A stretch of 64,000 nt of DNA from Aphelenchoides besseyi (Eukaryota; Nematoda; Chromadorea; Rhabditida; Aphelenchoididae). Position 1 is the first letter of the stretch. Every line of letters begins with the position of its first letter. Where the stretch lies: assembly GCA_024699855.1 (NCBI GenBank), contig JAMPIQ010000003.1, forward strand, positions 4,030,001 to 4,094,000, in the 5' to 3' direction. The position numbers were made by a program, and so were the translations under genes. Below the pieces are notes generated by a model. The model was not told the DNA's origin. It ran no database searches and saw only the letters and a list, made by a program, of their open reading frames with translations. Below are positions 2,150-26,826 of the stretch, piece by piece.

Positions 2150-2994
2150 GGAACTTCGTACTCCACAGCTTCACTGATTAGGAAAACCTTCAATCGAAAG
2201 TCGTCGGTGCTTTGTCAACAATCAGTTCGTCTCGAGTGGAACCATGACATTTTTGTCGAGTAGTCTTCGTATTCGATGAAGTTAATGTCTTGTGACGTTA
2301 CCAGACCTGCAAACAAATGAACTTCAAAAGAACAAATCGAAAAGAAAAGACACACCGAGCAATTTAAAGCTACAGGTTTCGTCCGAGGTCACTGGTGTTC
2401 CCGTGAATCCGTGTTTGTTTTTGATCTGAATGAGCGTGTGAACAGTGTCTTCGGGCCCGATGCATTGGGGATTTGTAATAAAGCCCGGCTTGTACCGTTT
2501 CACCTTCCGCACCTCCTCCGACTGTTCGTCCAAAGTCGCGAAGTTTGCATGAACAATTCCAATTCCTCCGTGCAACTAAAAGACATGGTTTCAAAGACAA
2601 AAGCGAGTTTAACTCACCGCCATTCCAATCGCCATTTCACTTTCGGTTACCGTGTCCATTGGCGCTGAGATGAGGGGAACGTTGAGTTTGAGCTTCCTCG
2701 TCAAATTGGTGCCGAGTGTCACGGCTGAGAGCGCAAAATCGGTCTGCCGCGGGAGTATTGTGAAGTCACTGAAATGCAAAACTCAAAACTCAAAATCCGA
2801 TTCTCGAACTTACTTGTACGATGTCCCAACACTCGAGAAGAGTTGATCAATTGTGATACCGTTTTCTGTGGTTCCCCACATGACTTCCAGATGCTGAAAC
2901 GGAGGATTTAACGCAAAAGAAGTGTTCTTACCTCGTAGTCCCAACGCAGGGACACGTCCTCAATTGAGGCGTATTCGTTTTCCGAATACGCCAT
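2150..2994 (-). pseudogene. IMP dehydrogenase fragment, 3' truncated
   Basis: Starts at ATG 2994 with the same first exons as the two complete IMPDH copies: the N-terminal segment, [18 protein letters not shown] and the first part of the CBS domain. From about 2386 toward 2150 the sequence diverges. The intron, the exon beginning GLVTSQDINF and the following CBS residues have changed. The frame breaks: a VMVPLE-like segment is still visible but out of frame and followed by stops. The whole catalytic C-terminal half is missing and SLC25A11 follows instead. From 2386 rightward it is nearly identical to the other copies. This suggests an old fragment at the edge of the array whose 5' part was made uniform with its neighbours. 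Confidence 0.8.
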
Positions 2995-3254
2995 CTTCAA
3001 AACGCTAAGTGACGATTCCTAAACGCTCGACGACTTCGCTGAAACAGAACGCCAAGAGTAAACTGCCAAAACATTTTTGTCGAGATAGCTACTGTACCGT
3101 ATATCAGAATTCAGTAGCTTGATGTTTTTTTAAGCGTTTATCGATGATAAGCAGCTAAACTACAGAATTGCTTGCAACAAACTGGCCCCAGAAGTCGCGG
3201 TCAAAAGATACATCAACAAAGTTTACTATTTGGAAGCAAAGAGACCCATTGGAG

Positions 3255-4433
3255 TTAAGGCTGTGAGATCGGACATTTCTGTTTGAAGTTTGCAGGTAGT
3301 TGGCTGAGAATGAAGTCGTAGGACGAAGGTAGAGCGTCAAAAATACGTTTCAGTCGTAACCACGCCAAATCACAAAGCTTGTCGGGTTGACTGAAGATGT
3401 TTCTGCTTCAATTTACGTGTCAATTCAACTTACTTGAAGACAAGACGATAAACGTTGAACTCGTCTGCATAATCACTCTTCGTCCAAACCACAAGCATTC
3501 GTTCTCCATCGCTGCTGATTGACCTTACTGAATGAGTAAAGTCGAAAGCTGCTTGCTTCCACTCTTTCGTATCCAAATCCAATGATATGATCTTACATTT
3601 CCCAGACTGTTCAAAATAACTGCAGTAAAAAAAGGTCCTTCCGATGCAACACATATCAATTGAGAATCGACATGCATCAAACTACAACATAAAATTGGGT
3701 TATTACTGTTCAAAGTAATGATACTGACATGAAAGGGACTCGATACTATTGCTTGATTGGTCGTTTTCTCGCGAACACTTTTACCAGTTGAAATCGAAAA
3801 CTTAACCAAATCAAGCGATCGGCCGCTATCGTTGTCGCTGTTTCTATCGTAATATAAACCATACAAAAAGCCGTCAAAACACGCGACAGCTTTCATCGCT
3901 CTTGGAACAGCAAGTTTCGATACCCGAAGTCGGTTGTCGGTTCCCATTTTAACGATGAAATAATCCGGAATTTCTAGTAAAGAAGATGAGGCAAGTATGA
4001 ATCCTTCGTGCAAGTTTGGCGGATGAGATGTTGGATACCATTCATAACTATGGCATCCGATTGGCAAAGTAACGGCCTGTTTGACGACCATCATTGAGCG
4101 TTCAAGGTCGATCTCTCCAATACCCAAATAGGGTGAGTTATCATTTCCAAAGACTAACAGTATTGTGTTCAAATTCAGAACATAGAAGCTACGCCTGAAA
4201 ATGCCGCTTTTCCTCGGTGAAACGTCAATTTTGAGTTCCCTAAAACAAAAGCTCAAGAAAGTGGGTTCGTAGATTTACCGTGTTTTTGTGTGGAACAAGT
4301 CAGTAAGAGTGAAGCAAACGTCGGTTTTCGAGATTAAAAAACGACCATCAATAAGACTAGGATAATAGCAACGACATTCTGGGAATACTCCCATCCAATT
4401 GCGATCGCTTTGTAAGTCCTTTCTTTCAATCAT
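3255..4433 (-). CDS. Unknown protein, propeller/F-box-like architecture, copy 1
   Basis: I do not recognise this gene. It reads from ATG 4433 (MIERKDLQSDRNWMG...). A short intron lies at about 4240-4278. A long exon follows, interrupted by a canonical 47-nt intron (gtcagt...gttgtag, about 3680-3726). Then come the segment SLDLDTKEWKQAAFDFTHSV and a last exon ending at TAA 3255. The product is about 370 residues, rich in aromatic residues and short beta-strand-like stretches such as VPRAMKAVACFDGFLYGLYY, as in kelch- or WD-type propellers. The tail contains KLCDLAWLRLKRIFDALP. The gene at the right edge of the window (63265-64000) has a similar composition. The exon structure is preserved in all three copies. 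Confidence 0.6.
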
Positions 4434-5190
4434 CGTCGACGTCCAAACACTGACAAAGAAACTAACTTCAGTTGCTACTCGCTATTCACGCACGTTATAG
4501 CTCCAAATTTGCACCGAAAGCTGCGAAGAGCTTTTGCCGCAAGCACTGACGTGGAGATATGTGCACGCAAGTTCCCGTTAAAACCGCGCATTTTCGGACG
4601 CTCGTCCTTCAATCAGGCAAAGTCTAGCCAAAAAACTTCCCTCGATGTTCATTTTCTGCTCGGATGCGACCAGGTTGTCGAATTCGGACGCTCACCGTAT
4701 AATTTGTCTTGACCGTAAGGCGCACGCGCAAAAATTGCGGCCGAATCGTCGACTTCGATTTCCGATCTGCTCAATCAAATCGCTTAATTCAATGCAGATC
4801 GTTGCGTCATACTAGCAACTAGTTCGAGAGGTCATTTTGCCCACTTAAATCTAATCAGCCACAGGACGCGCACTTCTTCCAAAAACAGTTCTCCCGACTC
4901 TGCGTCCAATTGCAAAAAAGCGTCAAAAATTGGCTCAGAACACGCGTTTTGCGGGAGTTTCCGTGGGCCGCATCTTCATGAAGAGTAGAAGTAGATTTTA
5001 GCAATTCTTTGCAGCTTTCGGTGCAGCGTTCAAAGCTTCTGATATGCAATAACGATGTTAATCGACACGAAAGTCAACAGACAACAAAGGGTCCTGGAGT
5101 AGTCGAATGCATTTTGACTGCTGTCTACTGGACAGCACCCAACTCGACGGCACCTAACCCAATGGAACGCTCTTTGCGCACTCGCATTGG

Positions 5191-5495
5191 TCAGCGGAAA
5201 CCAAGAGAAATCTTCGCTTTGCCACCCAAAAACCCGCCGAAAATGTGAAAACAAGCGTTCTCAACGATTACAGCTTTGTGTCGAATGCCATGGCCTTTAC
5301 AAGCCTCGAACAAACCTAACAGCCCTTCTAGCATTGCGACCACCATCCAAAAAATTAACTTACGTTGTGGATTCTCTGTCAAAAGATCCAAAAAGTGCGG
5401 AGCAAAATGTCGCGAGCGGCGAAAGCAAACGCGAGACTGAACGTGTGTCTCTTCGATTGGGTGGTCTCTTGCGACCCGGTGTCCACACTTGTTAG
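5191..5495 (-). CDS. Unknown protein, last two exons, copy 1
   Basis: A canonical 47-nt intron (gtaagt...gttag, about 5318-5364) joins an exon carrying HFAPHFLDLLTENPQ to a last exon reading RLFEACKGHGIRHKAVIVEN and ending GGKAKISLGFR. I cannot find a convincing first exon upstream. The stretch is also open for about 100 codons on the plus strand, so the coding strand is uncertain. It could be the downstream end of the tuberin-like gene, but I see no tuberin GAP motifs. In copy 3 a 3-nt deletion (NACFHIF becomes NACHIF) keeps the frame. Confidence 0.35.
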
Positions 5496-6054
5496 AAAGT
5501 TTTTCTTCTGTACGTTAAACTGAATCTCCGACGGCTGTTTGCATCCACAAACGATTGTGAACAGCGACTAATTGTACATTGACTCTCTTAATTGACAAGC
5601 CTTAAGAACGCCTTTTGGCCGTGAGAATGGTCAGTGAGCTACAACTCGGACTTCCAATCGTTCGACGGCGGACATCGCCGATTCAGGCGCAATATTGCAT
5701 TGCCCATACGTCAATGACCACGTCTAGCGTTGTTTCGAACAACAGGATACAAGAGTTGTTCGACTTTTCAAGAATTATGACGGAGCATGTCTCGAAATGC
5801 GATTGGCGTTTCCATTTGTTGCATGAAATTGTTTGTGCAACAAATTAGATTCACGGAAAGCTGTCCTCGAAACGTTGAATTTGAAATGAAATGGGGTGCA
5901 ATGGTCCGAAATTAGTCACAAGGACAACGACTGCGCGCGTCTTTCGATTGCATCCTTTGAGTTGCTTTTGGTATCAATGGACAAGGATTTAATGGGCTAT
6001 CTTCTATGTTGACACCAATTGAATGCGAACAGTTTAATTGACAAGTACTTAAGA

Positions 6055-8045
6055 CTACTCCAACTCGCGACCACAGATCTTCTGATCATTAGGATTAGGA
6101 CAACATCTCACTACGGTGGTTAAAATTGACCAAACGAATCGATTTGTTTGTAATTTGCAAAGTGAACGGGCAAAATCGGCAGGTTCCGGCGATTTGGTTG
6201 CTCGTGGAGTTGCAGTCGGAAACAAACCATTGGCATTCGCGAACGAACCAAACATGTGAGCCGCTAGAATGACTCGTTCATTCAACGGAACACACAAATA
6301 CCATCTGTAAAGTCGTTACACAAAGCCGTTTAGCTACTCGCACATACCGCATTGCCGTTGAGTAAACGGGTGTAGCAATGAAAGAATTGTATCGTCGAGC
6401 ATTTGAATACGGAGCCAGTACGTTGACAAGACCTTTGAAATGTTTGGTAAGATAAAAACCGTGAAATTCGGTCACATCTGCTGCGTCGTTTAGTGCTCGA
6501 CGATTGGAACGGTAAGTGAAGTGGATGCCTTCAAACCGACCAAGTATTCGAGTAGTGATCGATTGAAAGCTGCCATTTTATCGGGAAGAACCTGAAGTTG
6601 ATCGTTGAACAAGAACTTTTATTTCGACTGACCTGAATCGCTGCATCACAAGGCATGATTGCTTGTGGGCATCCAGTTCGAACTAACTCGACAACGATTC
6701 GACAAATTTGACTGTCGTGTGTGTTCTCGCTCAAACCGAGCAGCTTTCCAAGCACCGGACACAAATAACGAGCCAATTCGGTGCGCGACAAAAACGGAAA
6801 TCGTTCATCCATTTTTGGCACTATTCCAAGCACCGCATTTACAAGTTCATTCACGGCTTCATCTCCTGTCGTGTAGACCAATGAACGAGGTTCGAGTGCA
6901 CCGCTCAAAAACTCGAGAATTCGTTCCAACACCGGCCAATGCCGTTCGTTTTGCAAACCCAACGTACAAACTTTGCAAATGCCAGTCCAGTAAAACCCAT
7001 CTCTTGTTGCTGAAAATGTTTGTAATCGCCGAATACTCCCTCAACTCCTGAGTTGCCAACCAATGGCGGCCCATTAATTCGTATGATTCGAGGATTATAG
7101 ATTGGTTCAAATTGAGTTGGTGGTCGTATTAACACACGCCCCGATTGGCCATTAGTCGGATGTGAAGCGATGAGCAGTAGTGACTCGAATAAACGCATAC
7201 GAACATCACAACCCCTAGTAAGCGAAGTCATTTCACGTAATGCAACTCCGGATGCGTGATTATGATCTTGAAGATCGTTTCGACCATCACCAAATCGAAA
7301 GCTGTCCATCGCTCATCCAACAGCTCGTTGATGCCGGCGGCCGCGACTTCGAGATTGTCGTTGTCAACCGGAAGTCAAGCAAATACCATAAAGCGAAAGA
7401 AATGTTACGATTGATTCCTCCGTTAAGTGTCGTGTTAACCACGGTCAGAACACATGAAAAAATCATTCGAACCGTTCGGATTTATGGTTGTGGTTTTTGC
7501 AACTTCGAATAATACGTGAATCAAAAAGTACTAAAAGAACCTCGTAAAAGGTTATAATTGGTTGTATACCTGAATCTGTGGTTGCCGTTCATTCACCACA
7601 GTATTACAGATGGGCAGAATTACTTTTCGTAGCAGTGGAGCTTCATGTAGAACTCGATTTCTTTTCAGCGTATTTTCCATCACGTAAATCGCTTTTTCAC
7701 GTTGCACCAACGAAACTCCATCGTAAAGATATTTGGGCAACAATCCATGCAGCTGCTGAATCCACTTGTCTTTGTCAGGTGTCAAAGCCTTAAAATCAAT
7801 TTCAATGGTAAAACCAAAACAACTACCAACCGCAACACGTCAATCGATTAATCGAAGAGCTGAGCTATCGGGACGATCAATCACACAATCTTCGATTACT
7901 CAAAGAACTCATCAGCTGAACCGTTGTATTCCCCACGATCGACTAGAGATTCAATCAACGACAATATGCTGTGTAGGACACTGCGAATAACTGCGGCCGT
8001 TTCACCGTCATCACCACACAAAACAATCGCAGCTCGAAGCCGTTT
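6055..8045 (-). CDS. TSC2: Tuberin (TSC2)-like N-terminal HEAT region, copy 1
   Basis: Tuberin with hamartin restrains Rheb and TORC1. In order on the minus strand, several segments align with the first 900 residues of animal tuberin. SVLHSILSLIESLVDRGEYN matches human [38 protein letters not shown] matches PAKDGWIQNLQALMERF. Then come VMVETIFKIIITHPELHY, RMRLFESLLLIASHP, ERHWPVLERILEFLSGAL, and AMRWYLCVPLNERV (human AMWFIRCRLPFRKD). The frame then ends at 6055 (ICGRELE stop). I cannot find the C-terminal Rap/Rheb-GAP domain in the following 1.5 kb, so the gene may be truncated. Two junctions (7789-7831 and 7865-7901) need GG and GA donors. The join near 7240 needs a very short intron or is a frameshift. 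The first exons are not resolved. Confidence 0.65.
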
Positions 8046-8844
8046 GTTTAGACGAACTCAAGTAAACAACGTCAACGTTTTGTCTTGTTTAATTGAATGA
8101 CAAGTGAAATAGCTAAACGCGAACGTTTCTTACCAACTAGTCGACAAGTTGCGTGCATCACTTGTTTGACAACCTAAATAGCGGAGTTCATGCCGACCAT
8201 CTCCACTCACTCAACACGAAAAAGCTTGAGGCGCAAACATGTTGTCTAACAGAAGCAGTCAGCAGAAATGCAAATGACGTCGAGTTGAAATGTGAAGTCG
8301 ACCGTGAAAGATCTGCGCCTTTGCGGATCGAATTTGGGTTGTTGTTTGTGTCCATGGGTACAAATCAACACGCTGATAGCTACGTATCAGCAGTTGATAG
8401 TCACAAAGAAAGTTGACAAGCCGGTGAACGAGAATTGCTCTCCAACAGCGCTGCTGAGAAACAAAATTGCGAGATACAAGTCGTGCATCTGGTTCGTCAA
8501 CTCGAGTGACTTGAAGCACATCACGAACTATCAAGTCCAACAAGAAGCACGTTCGTCGATGAAAATCCACGCTCCAGATGTTGCAATCGTTGCGCTCTCG
8601 CTCCCCCACTTGACTTTCACTCCTGCGATTTGGAACACGAACCGCTCAACAAAAAGAGTTGAACGAAAGCGTCAATCAAATGGTCTAATGAACAGAAACA
8701 ACAAAAAATTTATTTAACATTGTGAAAAACAACGAAAAAATTAAATAGTTAACAAAAACTGAAGATATTTCAATGACGATCGAAATACTTGAAGACATCG
8801 AAATAACCAAAGGTTACAAAAGGGACAAGAAACACAGTGACCAA
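8046..8844. other. Unresolved stretch upstream of the tuberin-like gene, copy 1
   Basis: Open frames of 110-140 codons lie on both strands (8292-8717 plus, 8259-8609 minus). Neither starts convincingly nor matches a family I know. The first tuberin exons should lie here, but I cannot place them. An A-rich tail (8690-8760) separates it from the stop codon of the membrane-protein gene. Confidence 0.4.
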
Positions 8845-9513
8845 TTAGTAGACTTGTTTTGGATCATTGACCACGACAACAATCTTCTTGCACAAAAGCT
8901 CTTGATAACGTCGACAGATGTAGTAGGCAACGAAGGCGACGATAATCATGAAACCGAAGACAACCAAATAAGTTGTGATCATGTTCTCGGCAAACCAGTC
9001 GCCCATTCGATTCAGGAACGTGAACTCTTGAAGTTTGAGATGTCCAATTCGTCCGGCAGCAATGTAGCTCGTCTCAGCGTCGATGGCTTCTTCTTCGATT
9101 TCCGTCAAATGAACTTTTTCCTGAAACTGCAATCTTATTTTATCCCCAGAGTTCTGAAACTTACCATTGGTTGGAAGACTTGGTGAACGACTCCTGATCC
9201 GGGAATCTCCTTGGTGCCAATCGCGATCTTCGAATGCGGAGGAGTTGAGAGGTAGAAGACTCCGCCTTTCGGGACATCATATTTGTATGTTCCGGTATCG
9301 TTGCGAATTTGATAAGTCTGAATGTTACTATTTCTTATGAATAGATTGTTGATGAGCATACTTTCACAGTGGTTGCAATGTAAGTACTGTGAACGAGTGG
9401 TTTTGTCAAAACGAACGAGGATTTAACGTCTTTTACGACAACCGCACAACCGCCTAAAGTTCCTGGATTGCACAAAGATGCCGAGTGAACTTGATCTCGT
9501 CCACAGATCGTTG
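8845..9513 (-). pseudogene. Envelope-fusion-like membrane protein, 5' truncated, copy 1
   Basis: Contains only the C-terminal exons of the gene that is complete at 26827-28641: a cysteine-containing ectodomain part, a juxtamembrane segment, one transmembrane helix (about residues VVFGFMIIVAFVAYYIC) and a short basic tail ending at 8845. At 9513/9514 the sequence switches abruptly to the next unit, so the signal peptide, cleavage-like site and glycine-rich hydrophobic segment are lost. There is no promoter or start of its own, so it is probably not functional. Confidence 0.7.
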
Positions 9514-9939
9514 CCTTCCGGTTGTTTTCCTTGAACAAAACCAAAAGCCAATAGATCATCTAACCGTTTTTCATGACTCCGTTCGCTGTCACACGCGACT
9601 ATCGAAAGCAACTGAACTGCGGATTGTTTTTCCTAATGCGCAATGTTACCGCAACTTCTCGTCGACCATATCCTTTGCTGCTGCATTGGATTCAAAGTCT
9701 GTCAGTGGCACGAAGGCTTTGGAAACAAGTTGATCCAATTTCCGTCACAGTTGCAAAGAATCTCTTCTGTAAGCAACGACCGAAAACTTAATTTGAGGGC
9801 TCTTTCCACAAGCAACAGCCAAATTCTACACTCGACTTACGAGACAAGAACTGGAGCTTGTCGACGAACCATCTCTCTTCTTCCTCACAACAACCTGTCT
9901 GTTCGAATCGGATTAAGTTGTAAAATTTAGCGTTGGATG

Positions 9940-9945
9940 TTTATT
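9940..9945 (-). promoter_or_regulatory. Polyadenylation signal AATAAA for IMPDH copy A
   Basis: AATAAA on the minus strand about 40 bases past the IMPDH stop codon. A second AATAAA-like motif overlaps nearby on the plus strand. Confidence 0.55.
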
Positions 9946-9983
9946 GAAATCCAATAAATAGAACTTTAAACTTAAGCGGAGAT

Positions 9984-11981
9984 TTACTTGCGAGAAGAAT
10001 GCCGTTCAAATCGTATACGACCAACGTATGCGTCGCTGCTGAAAAATACGACCATTTTAATCGAAGATGTTTGAACTTACTGTAGCTCTTGAATGCTCCG
10101 TACTCCCATGCGTTGGAATCCGTGTTGAAGGCCACGAACGATGTACGGCACGAACTGATGAACACTTTCGCGGTCTCGCATGGTCGCCGAGACTCCTTGA
10201 GCCAGTTTGATTACATGCAATTCGCTGAAAACATAAGTTGGAATGTTGAAAGTTCTCGTCGCTTACTTTGTCAAATAACGTTCTTGACCTGTCGTGCTTG
10301 CGTTCAAGGATCCCATTCCTCGGCATCTGTAAGTGCAACGAATTATTTCGCATTAATGGGCACTTACTTTTTTAACCGAACGCCAGAAGGTCCCCAGAAG
10401 TATTCACCAGGTGCTTCATTCGTACCGGCCAACAAACCGCCCATCATGACAGTCGAAGCGCCGAGAGACAACGCTTTCGTAATGTAACCGACGTCTCTGA
10501 AATTAAACGTTCAATGTAGAATGTGAAATATTGAAACAAACCGAGTTCCACCATCCGCAACGACTGGAATACCACGAGTACGAGCATATCGAGCGACTTG
10601 GTAAACCGCTGTTCCTTGAGCTCGACCCACACCAAACACTAAATTTTCGTTTAGTTTCGTCGATTTCAATGTTCTTACCTTCATGTGTAGAAATCGATTC
10701 ACTGCTCATTCCAACTCGAAGAGCATCAGCTCCGGCATCGATTAGGACCTTTGCTTGCTGCATAGTCACCACATTGTCGGCAATCACTTGCGGACCATCG
10801 GGGTATGTTGCTTTGATCCATTTTAATAGCTGGACTTGGTATTCGCTAGAGCCATTTGACGAGTCCTGAAAGAACAATAGTCTATCAAGAATCTGCAACT
10901 TACAATCACAAGCACGTCCACCTTCGCTCCCACAAGCTTTTCGACCGCTTCCCTTGCCGTTTCACCTGTGTTGACCGCCGCACCGACCATGAGTCGTCCC
11001 TTGGAATCGTAGCTTGAGAGTGAAAATTCACGAGCTTTCTTCAGATCCGTTCGGGAAACTAACGAAACCAATTCGTTTTGATCATTTACGATCGGTAACT
11101 TTCCTGAAAGACGTAAAAAAATCAAACGAACGCAAAATCTGCTCACCTTTTTTTAGTGTCCTCAAAGTCGATACTGCGTCTGCGAAAGTTGTCGGTATTC
11201 TTTCCACCACCAGATGCTCAAGGGGAACCATTACATCGGCTATTTTTTTTGAGAAGTCTTTTTCGTCCATCAAATCGATGTCTTTTGACGTTACCAGACC
11301 TGCAAACAAATGAGGTTCAAATGAACAATCGCAAAGACTCACCGAGCAATTTAGAGCCACAGGTTCCGTCCAAGGTCACTGGTGTTCCCGTGAATCCGTG
11401 TTTGTTTTTGATCTGAATGAGCGTGTGAACAGTGTCTTCGGGCCCGATGCATTGGGGATTTGTAATAAAGCCCGGCTTGTACCGTTTCACCTTCCGCACC
11501 TCCTCCGACTGTTCGTCCAAAGTCGCGAAGTTTGCATGAACAATTCCAATTCCTCCGTGCAACTAAAAGACATGGTTTCAAAGACAAAAGCGAGTTTAAC
11601 TCACCGCCATTCCAATCGCCATTTCACTTTCGGTTACCGTGTCCATTGGCGCTGAGATGAGGGGAACGTTGAGTTTGAGCTTCCTCGTCAAATTGGTGCC
11701 GAGTGTCACGGCTGAGAGCGCAAAATCGGTCTGCCGCGGGAGTATTGTGAAGTCACTGAAATGCAAAACTCAAAACTCAAAATCCGATTCTCGAACTTAC
11801 TTGTACGATGTCCCAACACTCGAGAAGAGTTGATCAATTGTGATACCGTTTTCTGTGGTTCCCCACATGACTTCCAGATGCTGAAACGGAGGATTTAACG
11901 CAAAAGAAGTGTTCTTACCTCGTAGTCCCAACGCAGGGACACGTCCTCAATTGAGGCGTATTCGTTTTCCGAATACGCCAT
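9984..11981 (-). CDS. IMPDH: IMP dehydrogenase-like protein lacking the catalytic Cys, copy A
   Basis: The IMPDH family oxidises IMP to XMP, the committed step to GTP. The gene reads from ATG 11981 ([20 protein letters not shown]) to TAA 9984. Conserved blocks in order: [18 protein letters not shown]; both CBS halves ([10 protein letters not shown] and [20 protein letters not shown]); [34 protein letters not shown] (catalytic-site Asp present); [31 protein letters not shown]; and [20 protein letters not shown]. The length is typical for the family. The active-site loop, normally GSGSxCxT with the catalytic Cys (Cys331 in human), reads [18 protein letters not shown]. It has no cysteine and appears one residue shorter. 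The enzyme is therefore probably inactive in the normal reaction, or it uses another mechanism. Introns are about 40-55 nt. Confidence 0.93.
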
Positions 11982-12240
11982 CTTCAAAACGCTAAGTGAC
12001 GATTCCTAAACGCTCGACGACTTCGCTGAAACAGAACGCCAAGAGTAAACTGCCAAAACATTTTTGTCGAGATAGCTACTGTACCGTATATCAGAATTCA
12101 GTAGCTTGATGTTTTTTAAGCGTTTATCGATGATAAGCAGCTAAACTACAGAATTGCTTGCAACAAACTGGCCCCAGAAGTCGCGGTCAAAAGATACATC
12201 AACAAAGTTTACTATTTGGAAGCAAAGAGACCCATTGGAG

Positions 12241-13422
12241 TTAAGGCTGTGAGATCGGACATTTCTGTTTGAAGTTTGCAGGTAGTTGGCTGAGAATGAA
12301 GTCGTAGGACGAAGGTAGAGCGTCGTCAAAAATACGTTTCAGTCGTAACCACGCCAAATCACAAAGCTTGTCGGGTTGACTGAAGATGTTTCTGCTTCAA
12401 TTTACGTGTCAATTCAACTTACTTGAAGACAAGACGATAAACGTTGAACTCGTCTGCATAATCACTCTTCGTCCAAACCACAAGCATTCGTTCTCCATCG
12501 CTGCTGATTGACCTTACTGAATGAGTAAAGTCGAAAGCTGCTTGCTTCCACTCTTTCGTATCCAAATCCAATGATATGATCTTACATTTCCCAGACTGTT
12601 CAAAATAACTGCGGTAAAAAAAGGTCCTTCCGATGCAACACATATCAATTGAGAATCGACATGCATTAAACTACAACATAAAATCGGGTTATTACTGTTC
12701 AAACTAATGATACTAACATGAAAGGGACTCGATACTATTGCTTGATTGGTCGTTTTCTCGCGAACACTTTTACCAGTTGAAATCGAAAACTTAACCAAAT
12801 CAAGCGATCGGCCGCTATCGTTGTCGCTGTTTCTATCGTAATATAAACCATACAAAAAGCCGTCAAAACACGCGACAGCTTTCATCGCTCTTGGAACAGC
12901 AAGTTTCGATACCCGAAGTCGGTTGTCGGTTCCCATTTTAACGATGAAATAATCCGGAATTTCTAGTAAAGAAGATGAGGCAAGTATGAATCCTTCGTGC
13001 AAGTTTGGCGGATGAGATGTTGGATACCATTCATACTTATGGCATCCGATTGGCAAAGTAACGGCCTGTTTGACGACCATCATTGAGCGTTCAAGGTCGA
13101 TCTCTCCAATACCCAAGTAGGGTGAGTTATCATTTCCAAAGACTAACAGTATTGTGTTCAAATTCAGAACATAGAAACTACGCCTGAAAATGCCGCTTTT
13201 CCTCGGTGAAACGTCAATTTTGAGTTCCCTAAAACAAAAGCTCAAGAAAGTGGGTTCGTAGATTTACCGTGTTTTTGTGTGGAACAAGTCAGTAAGAGTG
13301 AAGCAAACGTCGGTTTTCGAGATTAAAAAACGACCATCAATAAGACTAGGATAATAGCAACGACATTCTGGGAATACTCCCATCCAATTGCGATCGCTTT
13401 GTAAGTCCTTTCTTTCAATCAT
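12241..13422 (-). CDS. Unknown protein, propeller/F-box-like architecture, copy 2
   Basis: Same structure as the gene at 3255-4433. Compared with copy 1 it carries several substitutions (for example HSYEWYP becomes HKYEWYP and IITLNS becomes IISLNS). An in-frame 3-nt insertion near 12324 adds one Asp in the tail (DALP becomes DDALP). All exons stay open, which fits a gene still under constraint or a very recent copy. Confidence 0.6.
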
Positions 13423-14178
13423 CGTCGACGTCCAAACACTGACAAAGAAACTAACTTCAGTTGCTACTCGCTATTCACGCACGTTATAGCTCCAAATTTG
13501 CACCGAAAGCTGCGAAGAGCTTTTGCCGCAAGCACTGACGTGGAGATATGTGCACGCAAGTTCCCGTTAAAACCGCGCATTTTCGGACGCTCGTCCTTCA
13601 ATCAGGCAAAGTCTAGCCAAAAAACTTCCCTCGATGTTCATTTTCTGCTCGGATGCGACCAGGTTGTCGAATTCGGACGCTCACCGTATAATTTGTCTTG
13701 ACCGTAAGGCGCACGCGCAAAAATTGCGGCCGAATCGTCGACTTCGATTTCCGATCTGCTCAATCAAATCGCTTAATTCAATGCAGATCGTTGCGTCATA
13801 CTAGCAACTAGTTCGAGAGTCATTTTGCCCACTTAAATCTAATCAGCCACAGGACGCGCACTTCTTCCAAAAACAGTTCTCCCGACTCTGCGTCCAATTG
13901 CAAAAAAGCGTCAAAAATTGGCTCAGAACACGCGTTTTGCGGGAGTTTCCGTGGGCCGCATCTTCATGAAGAGTAGAAGTAGATTTTAGCAATTCTTTGC
14001 AGCTTTCGGTGCAGCGTTCAAAGCTTCTGATATGCAATAACGATGTTAATCGACACGAAAGTCAACAGACAACAAAGGGTCCTGGAGTAGTCGAATGCAT
14101 TTTGACTGCTGTCTACTGGACAGCACCCAACTCGACGGCACCTAACCCAATGGAACGCTCTTTGCGCACTCGCATTGG

Positions 14179-14483
14179 TCAGCGGAAACCAAGAGAAATC
14201 TTCGCTTTGCCACCCAAAAACCCGCCGAAAATGTGAAAACAAGCGTTCTCAACGATTACAGCTTTGTGTCGAATGCCATGGCCTTTACAAGCCTCGAACA
14301 AACCTAACAGCCCTTCTAGCATTGCGACCACCATCCAAAAAATTAACTTACGTTGTGGATTCTCTGTCAAAAGATCCAAAAAGTGCGGAGCAAAATGTCG
14401 CGAGCGGCGAAAGCAAACGCGAGACTGAACGTGTGTCTCTTCGATTGGGTGGTCTCTTGCGACCCGGTGTCCACACTTGTTAG
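14179..14483 (-). CDS. Unknown protein, last two exons, copy 2
   Basis: Identical in structure to 5191-5495: an exon with LDLLTENPQ, a 47-nt GT-AG intron and a last exon ending KISLGFR. Coding strand and 5' end are uncertain. Confidence 0.35.
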
Positions 14484-15042
14484 AAAGTTTTTCTTCTGTA
14501 CGTTAAACTGAATCTCCGACGGCTGTTTGCATCCACAAACGATTGTGAACAGCGACTAATTGTACATTGACTCTCTTAATTGACAAGCCTTAAGAACGCC
14601 TTTTGGCCGTGAGAATGGTCAGTGAGCTACAACTCGGACTTCCAATCGTTCGACGGCGGACATCGCCGATTCAGGCGCAATATTGCATTGCCCATACGTC
14701 AATGACCACGTCTAGCGTTGTTTCGAACAACAGGATACAAGAGTTGTTCGACTTTTCAAGAATTATGACGGAGCATGTCTCGAAATGCGATTGGCGTTTC
14801 CATTTGTTGCATGAAATTGTTTGTGCAACAAATTAGATTCACGGAAAGCTGTCCTCGAAACGTTGAATTTGAAATGAAATGGGGTGCAATGGTCCGAAAT
14901 TAGTCACAAGGACAACGACTGCGCGCGTCTTTCGATTGCATCCTTTGAGTTGCTTTTGGTATCAATGGACAAGGATTTAATGGGCTATCTTCTATGTTGA
15001 CACCAATTGAATGCGAACAGTTTAATTGACAAGTACTTAAGA

Positions 15043-17033
15043 CTACTCCAACTCGCGACCACAGATCTTCTGATCATTAGGATTAGGACAACATCTCACT
15101 ACGGTGGTTAAAATTGACCAAACGAATCGATTTGTTTGTAATTTGCAAAGTGAACGGGCAAAATCGGCAGGTTCCGGCGATTTGGTTGCTCGTGGAGTTG
15201 CAGTCGGAAACAAACCATTGGCATTCGCGAACGAACCAAACATGTGAGCCGCTAGAATGACTCGTTCATTCAACGGAACACACAAATACCATCTGTAAAG
15301 TCGTTACAAGCCGTTTAGCTACTCGCACATACCGCATTGCCGTTGAGTAAACGGGTGTAGCAATGAAAGAATTGTATCGTCGAGCATTTGAATACGGAGC
15401 CAGTACGTTGACAAGACCTTTGAAATGTTTGGTAAGATAAAAACCGTGAAATTCGGTCACATCTGCTGCGTCGTTTAGTGCTCGACGATTGGAACGGTAA
15501 GTGAAGTGGATGCCTTCAAACCGACCAAGTATTCGAGTAGTGATCGATTGAAAGCTGCCATTTTATCGGGAAGAACCTGAAGTTGATCGTTGAACAAGAA
15601 CTTTTATTTCGACTGACCTGAATCGCTGCATCACAAGGCATGATTGCTTGTGGGCATCCAGTTCGAACTAACTCGACAACGATTCGACAAATTTGACTGT
15701 CGTGTGTGTTCTCGCTCAAACCGAGCAGCTTTCCAAGCACCGGACACAAATAACGAGCCAATTCGGTGCGCGACAAAAACGGAAATCGTTCATCCATTTT
15801 TGGCACTATTCCAAGCACCGCATTTACAAGTTCATTCACGGCTTCATCTCCTGTCGTGTAGACCAATGAACGAGGTTCGAGTGCACCGCTCAAAAACTCG
15901 AGAATTCGTTCCAACACCGGCCAATGCCGTTCGTTTTGCAAACCCAACGTACAAACTTTGCAAATGCCAGTCCAGTAAAACCCATCTCTTGTTGCTGAAA
16001 ATGTTTGTAATCGCCGAATACTCCCTCAACTCCTGAGTTGCCAACCAATGGCGGCCCATTAATTCGTATGATTCGAGGATTATAGATTGGTTCAAATTGA
16101 GTTGGTGGTCGTATTAACACACGCCCCGATTGGCCATTAGTCGGATGTGAAGCGATGAGCAGTAGTGACTCGAATAAACGCATACGAACATCACAACCCC
16201 TAGTAAGCGAAGTCATTTCACGTAATGCAACTCCGGATGCGTGATTATGATCTTGAAGATCGTTTCGACCATCACCAAATCGAAAGCTGTCCATCGCTCA
16301 TCCAACAGCTCGTTGATGCCGGCGGGCCGCGCGACTTCGAGATTGTCGTTGTCAACCGGAAGTCAAGCAAATACCATAAAGCGAAAGAAATGTTACGATT
16401 GATTCCTCCGTTAAGTGTCGTGTTAACCACGGTCAGAACACATGAAAAAATCATTCGAACCGTTCGGATTTATGGTTGTGGTTTTTGCAACTTCGAATAA
16501 TACGTGAATCAAAAAGTACTAAAAGAACCTCGTAAAAGGTTATAATTGGTTGTATACCTGAATCTGTGGTTGCCGTTCATTCACCACAGTATTACAGATG
16601 GGCAGAATTACTTTTCGTAGCAGTGGAGCTTCATGTAGAACTCGATTTCTTTTCAGCGTATTTTCCATCACGTAAATCGCTTTTTCACGTTGCACCAACG
16701 AAACTCCATCGTAAAGATATTTGGGCAACAATCCATGCAGCTGCTGAATCCACTTGTCTTTGTCAGGTGTCAAAGCCTTAAAATCAATTTCAATGGTAAA
16801 ACCAAAACAACTACCAACCGCAACACGTCAATCGATTAATCGAAGAGCTGAGCTATCGGGACGATCAATCACACAATCTTCGATTACTCAAAGAACTCAT
16901 CAGCTGAACCGTTGTATTCCCCACGATCGACTAGAGATTCAATCAACGACAATATGCTGTGTAGGACACTGCGAATAACTGCGGCCGTTTCACCGTCATC
17001 ACCACACAAAACAATCGCAGCTCGAAGCCGTTT
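15043..17033 (-). CDS. TSC2: Tuberin (TSC2)-like HEAT region, copy 2
   Basis: Same segments as copy 1. A 3-nt insertion at about 16324 changes the alanine-rich spot before GINELLDERW without breaking the frame. The short intron near 15300 has lost three bases compared with copy 1 (cacaaagccg becomes cacaagccg region), which is harmless inside the intron. No GAP domain is seen. Confidence 0.62.
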
Positions 17034-17832
17034 GTTTAGACGAACTCAAGTAAACAACGTCAACGTTTTGTCTTGTTTAATTGAATGACAAGTGAAATAG
17101 CTAAACGCGAACGTTTCTTACCAACTAGTCGACAAGTTGCGTGCATCACTTGTTTGACAACCTAAATAGCGGAGTTCATGCCGACCATCTCCACTCACTC
17201 AACACGAAAAAGCTTGAGGCGCAAACATGTTGTCTAACAGAAGCAGTCAGCAGAAATGCAAATGACGTCGAGTTGAAATGTGAAGTCGACCGTGAAAGAT
17301 CTGCGCCTTTGCGGATCGAATTTGGGTTGTTGTTTGTGTCCATGGGTACAAATCAACACGCTGATAGCTACGTATCAGCAGTTGATAGTCACAAAGAAAG
17401 TTGACAAGCCGGTGAACGAGAATTGCTCTCCAACAGCGCTGCTGAGAAACAAAATTGCGAGATACAAGTCGTGCATCTGGTTCGTCAACTCGAGTGACTT
17501 GAAGCACATCACGAACTATCAAGTCCAACAAGAAGCACGTTCGTCGATGAAAATCCACGCTCCAGATGTTGCAATCGTTGCGCTCTCGCTCCCCCACTTG
17601 ACTTTCACTCCTGCGATTTGGAACACGAACCGCTCAACAAAAAGAGTTGAACGAAAGCGTCAATCAAATGGTCTAATGAACAGAAACAACAAAAAATTTA
17701 TTTAACATTGTGAAAAACAACGAAAAAATTAAATAGTTAACAAAAACTGAAGATATTTCAATGACGATCGAAATACTTGAAGACATCGAAATAACCAAAG
17801 GTTACAAAAGGGACAAGAAACACAGTGACCAA
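17034..17832. other. Unresolved stretch upstream of the tuberin-like gene, copy 2
   Basis: Same as 8046-8844. There are open frames on both strands without a convincing start or family match. Confidence 0.4.
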
Positions 17833-18502
17833 TTAGTAGACTTGTTTTGGATCATTGACCACGACAACAATCTTCTTGCACAAAAGCTCTTGATAACGTC
17901 GACAGATGTAGTAGGCAACGAAGGCGACGATAATCATGAAACCGAAGACAACCAAATAAGTTGTGATCATGTTCTCGGCAAACCAGTCGCCCATTCGATT
18001 CAGGAACGTGAACTCTTGAAGTTTGAGATGTCCAATTCGTCCGGCAGCAATGTAGCTCGTCTCAGCGTCGATGGCTTCTTCTTCGATTTCCGTCAAATGA
18101 ACTTTTTCCTGAAACTGCAATCTTATTTTATCCCCAGAGTTCTGAAACTTACCATTGGTTGGAAGACTTGGTGAACGACTCCTGATCCGGGAATCTCCTT
18201 GGTGCCAATCGCGATCTTCGAATGCGGAGGAGTTGAGAGGTAGAAGACTCCGCCTTTCGGGACATCATATTTGTATGTTCCGGTATCGTTGCGAATTTGA
18301 TAAGTCTGAATGTTACTATTTTCTTATGAATAGATTGTTGATGAGCATACTTTCACAGTGGTTGCAATGTAAGTACTGTGAACGAGTGGTTTTGTCAAAA
18401 CGAACGAGGATTTAACGTCTTTTACGACAACCGCACAACCGCCTAAAGTTCCTGGATTGCACAAAGATGCCGAGTGAACTTGATCTCGTCCACAGATCGT
18501 TG
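17833..18502 (-). pseudogene. Envelope-fusion-like membrane protein, 5' truncated, copy 2
   Basis: The C-terminal ectodomain exons, transmembrane helix and basic tail are kept. The gene is cut at 18502/18503 at exactly the same base as copy 1. One extra T in the intron near 18320 separates it from copy 1. No start of its own is seen. Confidence 0.7.
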
Positions 18503-18974
18503 CCTTCCGGTTGTTTTCCTTGAACAAAACCAAAAGCCAATAGATCATCTAACCGTTTTTCATGACTCCGTTCGCTGTCACACGCGACTATCGAAAGCAA
18601 CTGAACTGCGGATTGTTTTTCCTAATGCGCAATGTTACCGCAACTTCTCGTCGACCATATCCTTTGCTGCTGCATTGGATTCAAAGTCTGTCAGTGGCAC
18701 GAAGGCTTTGGAAACAAGTTGATCCAATTTCCGTCACAGTTGCAAAGAATCTCTTCTGTAAGCAACGACCGAAAACTTAATTTGAGGGCTCTTTCCACAA
18801 GCAACAGCCAAATTCTACACTCGACTTACGAGACAAGAACTGGAGCTTGTCGACGAACCATCTCTCTTCTCCTCCTCACAACAACCTGTCTGTTCGAATC
18901 GGATTAAGTTGTAAAATTTAGCGTTGGATGTTTATTGAAATCCAATAAATAGAACTTTAAACTTAAGCGGAGAT

Positions 18975-20972
18975 TTACTTGCGAGAAGAATGCCGTTCAA
19001 ATCGTATACGACCAACGTATGCGTCGCTGCTGAAAAATACGACCATTTTAATCGAAGATGTTTGAACTTACTGTAGCTCTTGAATGCTCCGTACTCCCAT
19101 GCGTTGGAATCCGTGTTGAAGGCCACGAACGATGTACGGCACGAACTGATGAACACTTTCGCGGTCTCGCATGGTCGCCGAGACTCCTTGAGCCAGTTTG
19201 ATTACATGCAATTCGCTGAAAACATAAGTTGGAATGTTGAAAGTTCTCGTCGCTTACTTTGTCAAATAACGTTCTTGACCTGTCGTGCTTGCGTTCAAGG
19301 ATCCCATTCCTCGGCATCTGTAAGTGCAACGAATTATTTCGCATTAATGGGCACTTACTTTTTTAACCGAACGCCAGAAGGTCCCCAGAAGTATTCACCA
19401 GGTGCTTCATTCGTACCGGCCAACAAACCGCCCATCATGACAGTCGAAGCGCCGAGAGACAACGCTTTCGTAATGTAACCGACGTCTCTGAAATTAAACG
19501 TTCAATGTAGAATGTGAAATATTGAAACAAACCGAGTTCCACCATCCGCAACGACTGGAATACCACGAGTACGAGCATATCGAGCGACTTGGTAAACCGC
19601 TGTTCCTTGAGCTCGACCCACACCAAACACTAAATTTTCGTTTAGTTTCGTCGATTTCAATGTTCTTACCTTCATGTGTAGAAATCGATTCACTGCTCAT
19701 TCCAACTCGAAGAGCATCAGCTCCGGCATCGATTAGGACCTTTGCTTGCTGCATAGTCACCACATTGTCGGCAATCACTTGCGGACCATCGGGGTATGTT
19801 GCTTTGATCCATTTTAATAGCTGGACTTGGTATTCGCTAGAGCCATTTGACGAGTCCTGAAAGAACAATAGTCTATCAAGAATCTGCAACTTACAATCAC
19901 AAGCACGTCCACCTTCGCTCCCACAAGCTTTTCGACCGCTTCCCTTGCCGTTTCACCTGTGTTGACCGCCGCACCGACCATGAGTCGTCCCTTGGAATCG
20001 TAGCTTGAGAGTGAAAATTCACGAGCTTTCTTCAGATCCGTTCGGGAAACTAACGAAACCAATTCGTTTTGATCATTTACGATCGGTAACTTTCCTGAAA
20101 GACGTAAAAAAATCAAACGAACGCAAAATCTGCTCACCTTTTTTTAGTGTCCTCAAAGTCGATACTGCGTCTGCGAAAGTTGTCGGTATTCTTTCCACCA
20201 CCAGATGCTCAAGGGGAACCATTACATCGGCTATTTTTTTTGAGAAGTCTTTTTCGTCCATCAAATCGATGTCTTTTGACGTTACCAGACCTGCAAACAA
20301 ATGAGGTTCAAATGAACAATCGCAAAGACTCACCGAGCAATTTAGAGCCACAGGTTCCGTCCAAGGTCACTGGTGTTCCCGTGAATCCGTGTTTGTTTTT
20401 GATCTGAATGAGCGTGTGAACAGTGTCTTCGGGCCCGATGCATTGGGGATTTGTAATAAAGCCCGGCTTGTACCGTTTCACCTTCCGCACCTCCTCCGAC
20501 TGTTCGTCCAAAGTCGCGAAGTTTGCATGAACAATTCCAATTCCTCCGTGCAACTAAAAGACATGGTTTCAAAGACAAAAGCGAGTTTAACTCACCGCCA
20601 TTCCAATCGCCATTTCACTTTCGGTTACCGTGTCCATTGGCGCTGAGATGAGGGGAACGTTGAGTTTGAGCTTCCTCGTCAAATTGGTGCCGAGTGTCAC
20701 GGCTGAGAGCGCAAAATCGGTCTGCCGCGGGAGTATTGTGAAGTCACTGAAATGCAAAACTCAAAACTCAAAATCCGATTCTCGAACTTACTTGTACGAT
20801 GTCCCAACACTCGAGAAGAGTTGATCAATTGTGATACCGTTTTCTGTGGTTCCCCACATGACTTCCAGATGCTGAAACGGAGGATTTAACGCAAAAGAAG
20901 TGTTCTTACCTCGTAGTCCCAACGCAGGGACACGTCCTCAATTGAGGCGTATTCGTTTTCCGAATACGCCAT
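18975..20972 (-). CDS. IMPDH: IMP dehydrogenase-like protein lacking the catalytic Cys, copy B
   Basis: Essentially the same gene as 9984-11981, from ATG 20972 to TAA 18975, with all IMPDH and CBS blocks open. The active-site loop again reads SSESISTHE with no cysteine. The change was therefore present before the duplication and is not a sequencing error in one copy. The phosphate-binding and flap motifs ([13 protein letters not shown]) are kept. Confidence 0.92.
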
Positions 20973-21231
20973 CTTCAAAACGCTAAGTGACGATTCCTAA
21001 ACGCTCGACGACTTCGCTGAAACAGAACGCCAAGAGTAAACTGCCAAAACATTTTTGTCGAGATAGCTACTGTACCGTATATCAGAATTCAGTAGCTTGA
21101 TGTTTTTTAAGCGTTTATCGATGATAAGCAGCTAAACTACAGAATTGCTTGCAACAAACTGGCCCCAGAAGTCGCGGTCAAAAGATACATCAACAAAGTT
21201 TACTATTTGGAAGCAAAGAGACCCATTGGAG

Positions 21232-22410
21232 TTAAGGCTGTGAGATCGGACATTTCTGTTTGAAGTTTGCAGGTAGTTGGCTGAGAATGAAGTCGTAGGA
21301 CGAAGGTAGAGCGTCAAAAATACGTTTCAGTCGTAACCACGCCAAATCACAAAGCTTGTCGGGTTGACTGAAGATGTTTCTGCTTCAATTTACGTGTCAA
21401 TTCAACTTACTTGAAGACAAGACGATAAACGTTGAACTCGTCTGCATAATCACTCTTCGTCCAAACCACAAGCATTCGTTCTCCATCGCTGCTGATTGAC
21501 CTTACTGAATGAGTAAAGTCGAAAGCTGCTTGCTTCCACTCTTTCGTATCCAAATCCAATGATATGATCTTACATTTCCCAGACTGTTCAAAATAACTGC
21601 GGTAAAAAAAGGTCCTTCCGATGCAACACATATCAATTGAGAATCGACATGCATTAAACTACAACATAAAATCGGGTTATTACTGTTCAAACTAATGATA
21701 CTAACATGAAAGGGACTCGATACTATTGCTTGATTGGTCGTTTTCTCGCGAACACTTTTACCAGTTGAAATCGAAAACTTAACCAAATCAAGCGATCGGC
21801 CGCTATCGTTGTCGCTGTTTCTATCGTAATATAAACCATACAAAAAGCCGTCAAAACACGCGACAGCTTTCATCGCTCTTGGAACAGCAAGTTTCGATAC
21901 CCGAAGTCGGTTGTCGGTTCCCATTTTAACGATGAAATAATCCGGAATTTCTAGTAAAGAAGATGAGGCAAGTATGAATCCTTCGTGCAAGTTTGGCGGA
22001 TGAGATGTTGGATACCATTCATACTTATGGCATCCGATTGGCAAAGTAACGGCCTGTTTGACGACCATCATTGAGCGTTCAAGGTCGATCTCTCCAATAC
22101 CCAAGTAGGGTGAGTTATCATTTCCAAAGACTAACAGTATTGTGTTCAAATTCAGAACATAGAAACTACGCCTGAAAATGCCGCTTTTCCTCGGTGAAAC
22201 GTCAATTTTGAGTTCCCTAAAACAAAAGCTCAAGAAAGTGGGTTCGTAGATTTACCGTGTTTTTGTGTGGAACAAGTCAGTAAGAGTGAAGCAAACGTCG
22301 GTTTTCGAGATTAAAAAACGACCATCAATAAGACTAGGATAATAGCAACGACATTCTGGGAATACTCCCATCCAATTGCGATCGCTTTGTAAGTCCTTTC
22401 TTTCAATCAT
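21232..22410 (-). CDS. Unknown protein, propeller/F-box-like architecture, copy 3
   Basis: As copy 2, including the shared substitutions HKYEWYP and IISLNS, but without the 3-nt insertion in the tail. All exons are open. Confidence 0.6.
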
Positions 22411-23170
22411 CGTCGACGTCCAAACACTGACAAAGAAACTAACTTCAGTTGCTACTCGCTATTCACGCACGTTATAGCTCCAAATTTGCACCGAAAGCTG
22501 CGAAGAGCTTTTGCCGCAAGCACTGACGTGGAGATATGTGCACGCAAGTTCCCGTTAAAACCGCGCATTTTCGGACGCTCGTCCTTCAATCAGGCAAAGT
22601 CTAGCCAAAAAAAACTTCCCTCGATGTTCATTTTCTGCTCGGATGCGACCAGGTTGTCGAATTCGGACGCTCACCGTATAATTTGTCTTGACCGTAAGGC
22701 GCACGCGCAAAAAATTGCGGCCGAATCGTCGACTTCGATTTCCGATCTGCTCAATCAAATCGCTTAATTCAATGCAGATCGTTGCGTCATACTAGCAACT
22801 AGTTCGAGAGGTCATTTTGCCCACTTAAATCTAATCAGCCACAGGACGCGCACTTCTTCCAAAAACAGTTCTCCCGACTCTGCGTCCAATTGCAAAAAAG
22901 CGTCAAAAATTGGCTCAGAACACGCGTTTTGCGGGAGTTTCCGTGGGCCGCATCTTCATGAAGAGTAGAAGTAGATTTTAGCAATTCTTTGCAGCTTTCG
23001 GTGCAGCGTTCAAAGCTTCTGATATGCAATAACGATGTTAATCGACACGAAAGTCAACAGACAACAAAGGGTCCTGGAGTAGTCGAATGCATTTTGACTG
23101 CTGTCTACTGGACAGCACCCAACTCGACGGCACCTAACCCAATGGAACGCTCTTTGCGCACTCGCATTGG

Positions 23171-23472
23171 TCAGCGGAAACCAAGAGAAATCTTCGCTTT
23201 GCCACCCAAAAACCCGCCGAAAATGTGACAAGCGTTCTCAACGATTACAGCTTTGTGTCGAATGCCATGGCCTTTACAAGCCTCGAACAAACCTAACAGC
23301 CCTTCTAGCATTGCGACCACCATCCAAAAAATTAACTTACGTTGTGGATTCTCTGTCAAAAGATCCAAAAAGTGCGGAGCAAAATGTCGCGAGCGGCGAA
23401 AGCAAACGCGAGACTGAACGTGTGTCTCTTCGATTGGGTGGTCTCTTGCGACCCGGTGTCCACACTTGTTAG
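23171..23472 (-). CDS. Unknown protein, last two exons, copy 3
   Basis: As copies 1 and 2, with a 3-nt deletion at about 23228 that removes one Phe (NACFHIF becomes NACHIF) and keeps the frame. It stays uncertain which strand is coding. Confidence 0.35.
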
Positions 23473-24031
23473 AAAGTTTTTCTTCTGTACGTTAAACTGA
23501 ATCTCCGACGGCTGTTTGCATCCACAAACGATTGTGAACAGCGACTAATTGTACATTGACTCTCTTAATTGACAAGCCTTAAGAACGCCTTTTGGCCGTG
23601 AGAATGGTCAGTGAGCTACAACTCGGACTTCCAATCGTTCGACGGCGGACATCGCCGATTCAGGCGCAATATTGCATTGCCCATACGTCAATGACCACGT
23701 CTAGCGTTGTTTCGAACAACAGGATACAAGAGTTGTTCGACTTTTCAAGAATTATGACGGAGCATGTCTCGAAATGCGATTGGCGTTTCCATTTGTTGCA
23801 TGAAATTGTTTGTGCAACAAATTAGATTCACGGAAAGCTGTCCTCGAAACGTTGAATTTGAAATGAAATGGGGTGCAATGGTCCGAAATTAGTCACAAGG
23901 ACAACGACTGCGCGCGTCTTTCGATTGCATCCTTTGAGTTGCTTTTGGTATCAATGGACAAGGATTTAATGGGCTATCTTCTATGTTGACACCAATTGAA
24001 TGCGAACAGTTTAATTGACAAGTACTTAAGA

Positions 24032-26023: not shown

Positions 26024-26826
26024 GTTTAGACGAACTCAAGTAAACAACGTCAACGTTTTGTCTTGTTTAATTGAATGACAAGTGAAATAGCTAAACGCGA
26101 ACGTTTCTTACCAACTAGTCGACAAGTTGCGTGCATCACTTGTTTGACAACCTAAATAGCGGAGTTCATGCCGACCATCTCCACTCACTCAACACGAAAA
26201 AGCTTGAGGCGCAAACATGTTGTCTAACAGAAGCAGTCAGCAGAAATGCAAATGACGTCGAGTTGAAATGTGAAGTCGACCGTGAAAGATCTGCGCCTTT
26301 GCGGATCGAATTTGGGTTGTTGTTTGTGTCCATGGGTACAAATCAACACGCTGATAGCTACGTATCAGCAGTTGATAGTCACAAAGAAAGTTGACAAGCC
26401 GGTGAACGAGAATTGCTCTCCAACAGCGCTGCTGAGAAACAAAATTGCGAGATACAAGTCGTGCATCTGGTTCGTCAACTCGAGTGACTTGAAGCACATC
26501 ACGAACTATCAAGTCCAACAAGAAGCACGTTCGTCGATGAAAATCCACGCTCCAGATGTTGCAATCGTTGCGCTCTCGCTCCCCCACTTGACTTTCACTC
26601 CTGCGATTTGGAACACGAACCGCTCAACAAAAAGAGTTGAACGAAAGCGTCAATCAAATGGTCTAATGAACAGAAAAACAACAAAAAATTTATTTAACAT
26701 TGTGAAAAAAACAACGAAAAAATTAAATAGTTAACAAAAACTGAAGATATTTCAATGACGATCGAAATACTTGAAGACATCGAAATAACCAAAGGTTACA
26801 AAAGGGACAAGAAACACAGTGACCAA
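26024..26826. other. Unresolved stretch upstream of the tuberin-like gene, copy 3
   Basis: Same as 8046-8844, with extra A bases near 26677 and 26707. Confidence 0.4.

Follow-up and report, generated by a model that had tools for sequence, protein, structure and literature searches.

IMP dehydrogenase (IMPDH), a drug target, is rate-setting for guanine nucleotide synthesis and forms filaments in vertebrates. IMPDH tetramers are stable and pair into octamers via their nucleotide-binding Bateman domains, and the human filament interface uses a vertebrate-specific N-terminus (PMC7018514); filament mutants of IMPDH are dealt with in PMC12265856. The potassium ligands are main-chain carbonyls, supplied by two glycines and the cysteine of the catalytic loop and by the C-terminus of the neighbouring subunit, and the flap arginine has a role in hydrolysis (PMC4594927). 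In one fungal IMPDH the ten C-terminal residues pack into the finger domain of the neighbour and complete its finger sheet, and their removal markedly cut activity (PMC4660370). PMC numbers refer here to the extracts of these papers that we drew on.

Catalytically altered paralogs have been described in other enzyme families. For PRPS, a preprint (PMC13252144) claims 37 independent events and gives optimisation of complex assembly and activity as their main role; in trypanosomatid deoxyhypusine synthase a dead paralog and an active subunit form a heterotetramer whose activity is raised 3000-fold (PMC3663545). Among the titles listed in searches of open PMC text, none concerned an IMPDH pseudoenzyme. 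Here we describe a candidate in Aphelenchoides besseyi, a nematode that feeds on plants and fungi.

Results

Tandem copies of an IMPDH-like gene

The window, meaning the whole 64,000-base stretch that was analysed, comes from a genome of 47.4 Mb in 31 contigs. An initial sequence-only reading had described an IMPDH gene duplicated as part of a 9 kb unit, and we found tandem units with a repeat period of ~8,988 bases whose joints sit within the IMPDH-like gene itself.

C3:4030001-4094000: analysed window, Aphelenchoides besseyi
2195..11182, no strand: tandem unit 1
11183..20173, no strand: tandem unit 2
20174..27499, no strand: tandem unit 3, incomplete, stopping short of another IMPDH 3' half
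9984..11981, minus strand: IMPDH paralog copy A; 12 exons, 512 amino acids, GT..AG at 11 of 11 introns
11981-11919, 11880-11801, 11755-11605, 11562-11343, 11299-11147, 11103-10904, minus strand: copy A exons 1-6
10865-10679, 10638-10542, 10496-10368, 10326-10267, 10224-10081, 10038-9984, minus strand: copy A exons 7-12
18975..20972, minus strand: IMPDH paralog copy B; coding sequence equal to that of copy A, 12 exons, 512 amino acids
2195..2994, minus strand: truncated copy 1, with exons 1-4 plus a broken part of exon 5 and stopping before the catalytic loop

Exon edges of copies A and B were picked by hand. Exon 1 is the least certain exon of copy A, and the public copy-1 model begins at an internal Met in exon 2. 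That public protein (P0231, 176 amino acids, 'IMP dehydrogenase', Aphelenchoides besseyi) corresponds to the fragment at 2195-2994; no public model for the full-length copies was present among the matches listed in protein searches.

Copies A and B show no differences over 1539 coding bases and 100% identity across 2221 bases. Because they are identical they count as one observation, and their use as two independent pieces of evidence was rejected. Comparison of 9518-18506 with 18509-27499 revealed 18 small events, 14 of them small indels and none within the IMPDH gene, which indicates that the duplication is very recent; the likeness of A to B therefore says nothing of constraint. Units 1 and 2 differ at 56 positions, 40 of which fall within 2202-2385.

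Elsewhere in the window, part of a gene with a Tuberin match (PF03542, 29.4 bits, cut-off 27) lies at 15519-16025 on the minus strand, within the duplicated unit, and open stretches of similar size are present in all three units. The minus-strand regions 44965-47170 and 54759-55340 gave ABC-transporter membrane region matches (one of 89.6 bits and one slightly below cut-off) and a stretch matching PH and SH3, in which PI-PLC-Y scored below its cut-off. Rfam and tRNA (bacterial code) scans of the window gave no match.

An ordinary IMPDH and related loci elsewhere in the genome

The sequence-only reading had proposed a search for a second, normal IMPDH, and one is present. This ordinary gene (L009, C1:17.61 Mb) has the full loop GSGSICITQE, ends in EGGVHSLHSYEK and encodes a protein 98.8% identical to public A. 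besseyi P0002. It apparently finishes across a GC-AG intron (L009 2700-2645). The genome profile scan scored the best candidates only, so there are at least as many IMPDH-like loci as are counted here.

The further PF00478 matches found were five GMP reductase loci with their cysteine and one short match on C2 to another barrel. The GMP reductase loci (L010-L014; C1 7.38, 7.32 and 7.63 Mb, C3 5.39 and 5.32 Mb) all keep PGSVCTTRR, with GIDPGSVC in L014 where the others have GIGPGSVC.

A remnant of a second IMPDH paralog at C2 7.081 Mb was found by DNA and was not among the PF00478 matches. At this locus (L016, C2:7078500-7085000, ~2900-3250) an N-terminal exon ENEYASID...RWNYE and a GYIDF in exon 3 can be read, and the gene is unrecognisable beyond; an open stretch nearby looks chromodomain-like in our reading of the letters. 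By eye, the window gene shares its N-terminal exon, ENEYASI...RW(D/N)YE, with the C2 remnant and not with the ordinary gene. A search with the C2 N-terminal exon returned the C2 locus itself as its sole match.

The catalytic loop has no cysteine

Both complete copies had been said to lack the catalytic cysteine in a loop apparently one residue short, and direct reading bears this out.

10680..10706, minus strand: Cys-less loop SSESISTHE, copy A
19671..19697, minus strand: Cys-less loop SSESISTHE, copy B

There is no in-frame Cys codon within the loop of copy A or copy B, so that the cysteine of GSGSxCxT, our criterion for IMPDH as a catalyst, is absent from the window paralog. Where relatives have GMGSGSICITQEV, the paralog has Ser in place of Cys, two altered glycines and one residue fewer; against the ordinary loop the changes are G330S, G332E, C335S, deletion of I336 and Q338H. 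Alignment over relatives, which the earlier reading had suggested, showed Cys at this position in 228 of 229 among the matches listed (by pattern match), and the remaining one, P0042, is a gene model missing the whole stretch. The loop substitutions are residues absent from all 114 compared relatives.

A hidden exon supplying the cysteine had been named as a possible refutation. The loop is followed by a GT-AG intron and then by VFGVGRAQG in the next exon; the intron is 40 bases long and leaves no room for another exon, and in copy B the Cys codon that opens the next exon is in a different frame. A hidden exon was therefore ruled out on the loop and intron reading and the splice sites.

Other changes in the active site, tail and CBS region

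Three further features set the paralog apart from the ordinary gene.

10323..10325, minus strand: TGC (Cys) where KKYRGMGS has its phosphate-binding Tyr (PMC4594927 for the contact made by this Tyr)
9984..9986, minus strand: stop codon, earlier than in the ordinary gene, with no EGGVHSLHSYEK tail
11147..11299, minus strand: exon 5, second CBS motif (CBS2); 29 of 51 compared codons amino-acid-changed, the most diverged among exons 2-11

Ligand contacts were taken from a bacterial IMPDH and transferred by motif (PMC4594927). The paralog retains the phosphate Ser, Thr, ribose Asp, three phosphate-site glycines, Met, Gly, Gln and the NAD Asp. It also retains the flap pair R443 and Y444 (window protein numbering), the Tyr being the partner of the flap Arg, in a flap region three residues shorter than in the ordinary gene. 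Ser69 of SSPMDT, which presumably has a role in IMP binding, is changed to Ala. At the K+ site, G330S, G332E and C335S are joined by the absence of the three EGG tail positions. We take the EGG tail to be the animal counterpart of the C-terminal K+ ligands; because these ligands are main-chain carbonyls and the EGG role is assumed, the case for loss of the K+ site is strong yet indirect. Altogether 19 of 129 near-invariant columns are altered, the lost tail counted.

At the GTP site, in alignments judged by eye, the counterparts of human IMPDH1 Arg224, Asp226, Leu227 and Arg231 appear retained, and those of Asn198 and Lys238 differ already in the ordinary nematode gene (sites from PMC4660370); PMC10407431 yielded no passage on these residues. 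Homology to PF00478 (363 bits), PF00571 (47 bits) and the IMPDH1 chain 7rfe (508 bits, PDB) makes an IMPDH fold clear for the predicted protein. Outside the loop, the sequence-only reading had called barrel, flap and CBS domains well kept. This stands for the barrel and the flap Arg-Tyr pair, but not for CBS2, the shortened C-terminus, the Tyr now Cys, the Ser69 now Ala, the shortened flap or the altered near-invariant columns.

The window gene is a fast-evolving relative of the ordinary gene

A 17-protein tree groups the window protein with both A. besseyi IMPDHs (support 99/95), A. fujianensis having split off earlier. Weaker support (89/77) places the branching of the window protein before the two A. 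besseyi IMPDHs parted. Of trees built on half-proteins, the N-terminal half recovers the trio (98/93) and the C-terminal half alone is unresolved. From the shared fork, the window branch measures 0.43 against ~0.01 and ~0.02 for the two ordinary proteins, and is thus 20-45 times longer. Polarisation of the 113 amino-acid differences from the ordinary copy with four outgroups assigned 91 derived states to the window gene and 4 to the ordinary gene, and left 8 ambiguous and 10 undecided. The two proteins are 77% identical and their exon layout is common from exon 3 onward. By these sequence comparisons, the window gene is a young, fast-evolving paralog of the nematode IMPDH. It is thus a descendant that has lost catalytic residues, from an enzyme whose activity we infer from the sequence of the ordinary copy.

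Base differences from the ordinary gene amount to 68 of 417 in introns and 237 of 1491 in exons, 16% each. The divergence is patchy: introns 2-11 range from 7% to 43%, exon 5 reaches 39%, and exon 9 (10496-10368) has a single difference from L009 in 129 bases. The near-identity of exon 9 suggests gene conversion, which could also have erased lesions.

Evidence for and against selection on the protein

Constraint on the gene had been claimed from the start. The resemblance of copies A and B is uninformative on this point, but tests against the ordinary gene tended to favour some selection on the protein. None of the 497 aligned codons is a stop, whereas random placement of 118 to 237 differences left the frame stop-free in 1.3% to 0.02% of cases (5000 trials each); measured against the ordinary copy the gene does have a single premature stop, at its extreme end. 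Gaps in exons 2-11 are of 3, 3, 3 and 9 bases, all four multiples of three, and those in introns are of 1, 2, 1, 4 and 2 bases, none of the five a multiple (p 0.008; the count excludes the remodelled N-terminus and shortened C-terminus). Amino-acid changes numbered 113 against a shuffle mean of 158.

We also asked how often changes led to residues present among relatives, using a homolog alignment of 114 of the 120 listed proteins (six outside 480-660 amino acids were left out). This was so for 62 of 96 changes in exons 2-11, against a mean of 36% and a maximum of 48% in 1000 shuffles, and for 50 of 84 (60%) when all 12 possibly ancestral changes (4 + 8) were dropped. The Cys-bearing P0004 of A. 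bicaudatus scored 79 of 81 in the same test, which makes the window gene intermediate between that protein and the shuffles. Conserved columns were mildly spared (26 changes against 34.2 expected, z -2.1). Exon by exon, amino-acid changes fell below the shuffles at the 5% level in exons 3, 4, 5 and 7 only; exons 2, 6, 8, 9, 10 and 11 showed no deficit in this test. The shuffles place all differences on one branch and are in this respect generous to selection.

Pairwise dN/dS against the ordinary gene was 0.49 by NG86 (0.1455/0.296) and 0.54 by YN00. Since nearly all polarised changes lie on the paralog branch (91 versus 4), dN/dS on that branch may be near 1. The matches listed in protein searches included no ortholog from other species or strains. 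With its open frame, in-frame gaps, kept splice sites and tolerated changes, the gene does not look like a neutral pseudogene, and it is probably still selected as a protein.

A possible concentration of changes at catalytic positions

Several comparisons, picked after the loop had been seen, point to catalytic positions. Of the 6 changes in exon 7, 5 are to unseen residues, compared with 29 of 90 in the other exons (p 0.02), and the 9-codon loop holds 4 of the 6 (p 0.003). Among ligand columns 6 of 16 are altered, versus 13 of 113 equally conserved ones (p 0.014); the enrichment weakens to 4 of 14 versus 12 of 112 when the C-terminus is left aside (p 0.08). Clustering of base differences was also considered as proof of selection on the loop. 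A 36-base scan of exons 6-9 placed the densest cluster at the start of exon 6 (11 differences, p 0.004) and not at the loop, and clustering was therefore not used as evidence.

Discussion

The lack of the cysteine, the replaced loop glycines, the absent tail and the lost phosphate Tyr, in a protein whose barrel and other contacts stay, mark the window protein as a probable pseudoenzyme, and it is very likely incapable of the IMPDH reaction. The dead-enzyme part of the initial proposal of a pseudo-enzyme thus appears likely from the active-site losses. A changed chemistry, in which Ser348 or another group replaces the cysteine or a related reaction is catalysed, could appeal to the Ser at or beside the Cys position and to the retained flap Arg-Tyr pair. 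We regard it as highly improbable, given that the loop is one residue shorter, Gly332 has become Glu, both halves of the K+ site are altered or absent, and Cys mutants of IMPDH are not known to be active. An artefact of assembly, sequencing or gene modelling has a negligible chance of explaining the locus. The differences between 9518-18506 and 18509-27499 are indeed mostly small indels (14 of 18), but the 16% difference from the ordinary gene affects introns and exons alike and is far above read error, and the loop is the same in copies A and B, with sound splice sites; on these grounds the artefact was rejected.

The alternatives that carry more weight concern what the protein is for. A duplicate on its way out, under relaxed selection and with its enzyme function gone but an internal stop or frameshift yet to arise or fix, would account for the long paralog branch (0.43 versus 0 and 0.012), the changes in 19 of 129 near-invariant columns and a branch dN/dS possibly near 1; copy 1 is already broken, and the C2 relative is recognisable in its first exons only. 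The open frame, intact splice sites, in-frame gaps and bias towards tolerated residues speak against such decay, which we consider unlikely though well within reach. Moderate confidence attaches instead to a protein that is dead as an enzyme yet selected, in whatever role, a stand-alone one included. That particular role, a homo-oligomer outside the IMPDH complex that would bind IMP/XMP/GMP or ATP/GTP as a sink or sensor, or bind nucleic acid, is suggested by the retention of most mapped substrate contacts (Ser, Thr, Asp, Gly, Met, Gln) and by the persisting CBS match; the lost phosphate Tyr and replaced loop glycines should weaken IMP binding, and we think it unlikely.

Within the reading of a dead but selected protein, we tentatively put forward mixed assembly with ordinary IMPDH. 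The window protein would go on assembling into IMPDH-like tetramers or octamers, in which ordinary subunits would most likely also take part. As each subunit normally lends K+ ligands and its C-terminal strand to the next, a well-folded but tailless dead subunit should impair or retune the subunit next to it, which would receive neither. The likeliest outcome would be an IMPDH activity lowered or reset, the altered Bateman domain could change the response to GTP and ATP, and guanine nucleotide synthesis in the nematode would be reset through a dead partner. The more specific proposal of a regulatory IMPDH subunit in mixed octamers, in which selection dismantled the loop and kept the fold, is a doubtful one. 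We rejected a filament reading for the window protein, because the human interface rests on a vertebrate-specific N-terminus and is not transferable to a nematode paralog.

If the paralog is what we propose, IMPDH would join the nucleotide enzymes that have dead paralogs. A protein with no cysteine, loop glycines or C-terminal strand would also be a natural test for telling the parts of IMPDH that serve chemistry from those that serve assembly.

Comparison with known systems

With eukaryotic IMPDH (PF00478 with a CBS pair; TIGR01302; L009/P0002) the window protein shares the fold family, the CBS insertion and the flap Arg-Tyr pair. It scores 513 bits against the NCBIfam IMPDH model (cut-off 481.5), so that an annotation pipeline might label it IMPDH. 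It differs from ordinary IMPDH in lacking the cysteine, the K+ loop glycines, the phosphate Tyr and the C-terminal tail, and in its different N-terminal exon and diverged CBS2. GMP reductase has the barrel family in common, and its five loci in this genome keep the cysteine in PGSVCTTRR; a GMP reductase identity was rejected, since the best GMP reductase model gives 183 bits against the 513 for IMPDH and the Cys of PGSVCTTR is missing. The PRPS pseudoenzymes are likewise catalytically altered paralogs beside an active enzyme of nucleotide synthesis; they belong to another enzyme family, and the duplications counted in the extract of that preprint needed at least two orthologs, where the window paralog so far has none among the matches listed. 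In the deoxyhypusine synthase pair, as its source extract describes it, the dead partner activates, whereas the window paralog, in its proposed assembly with an active partner, would be expected to inhibit.
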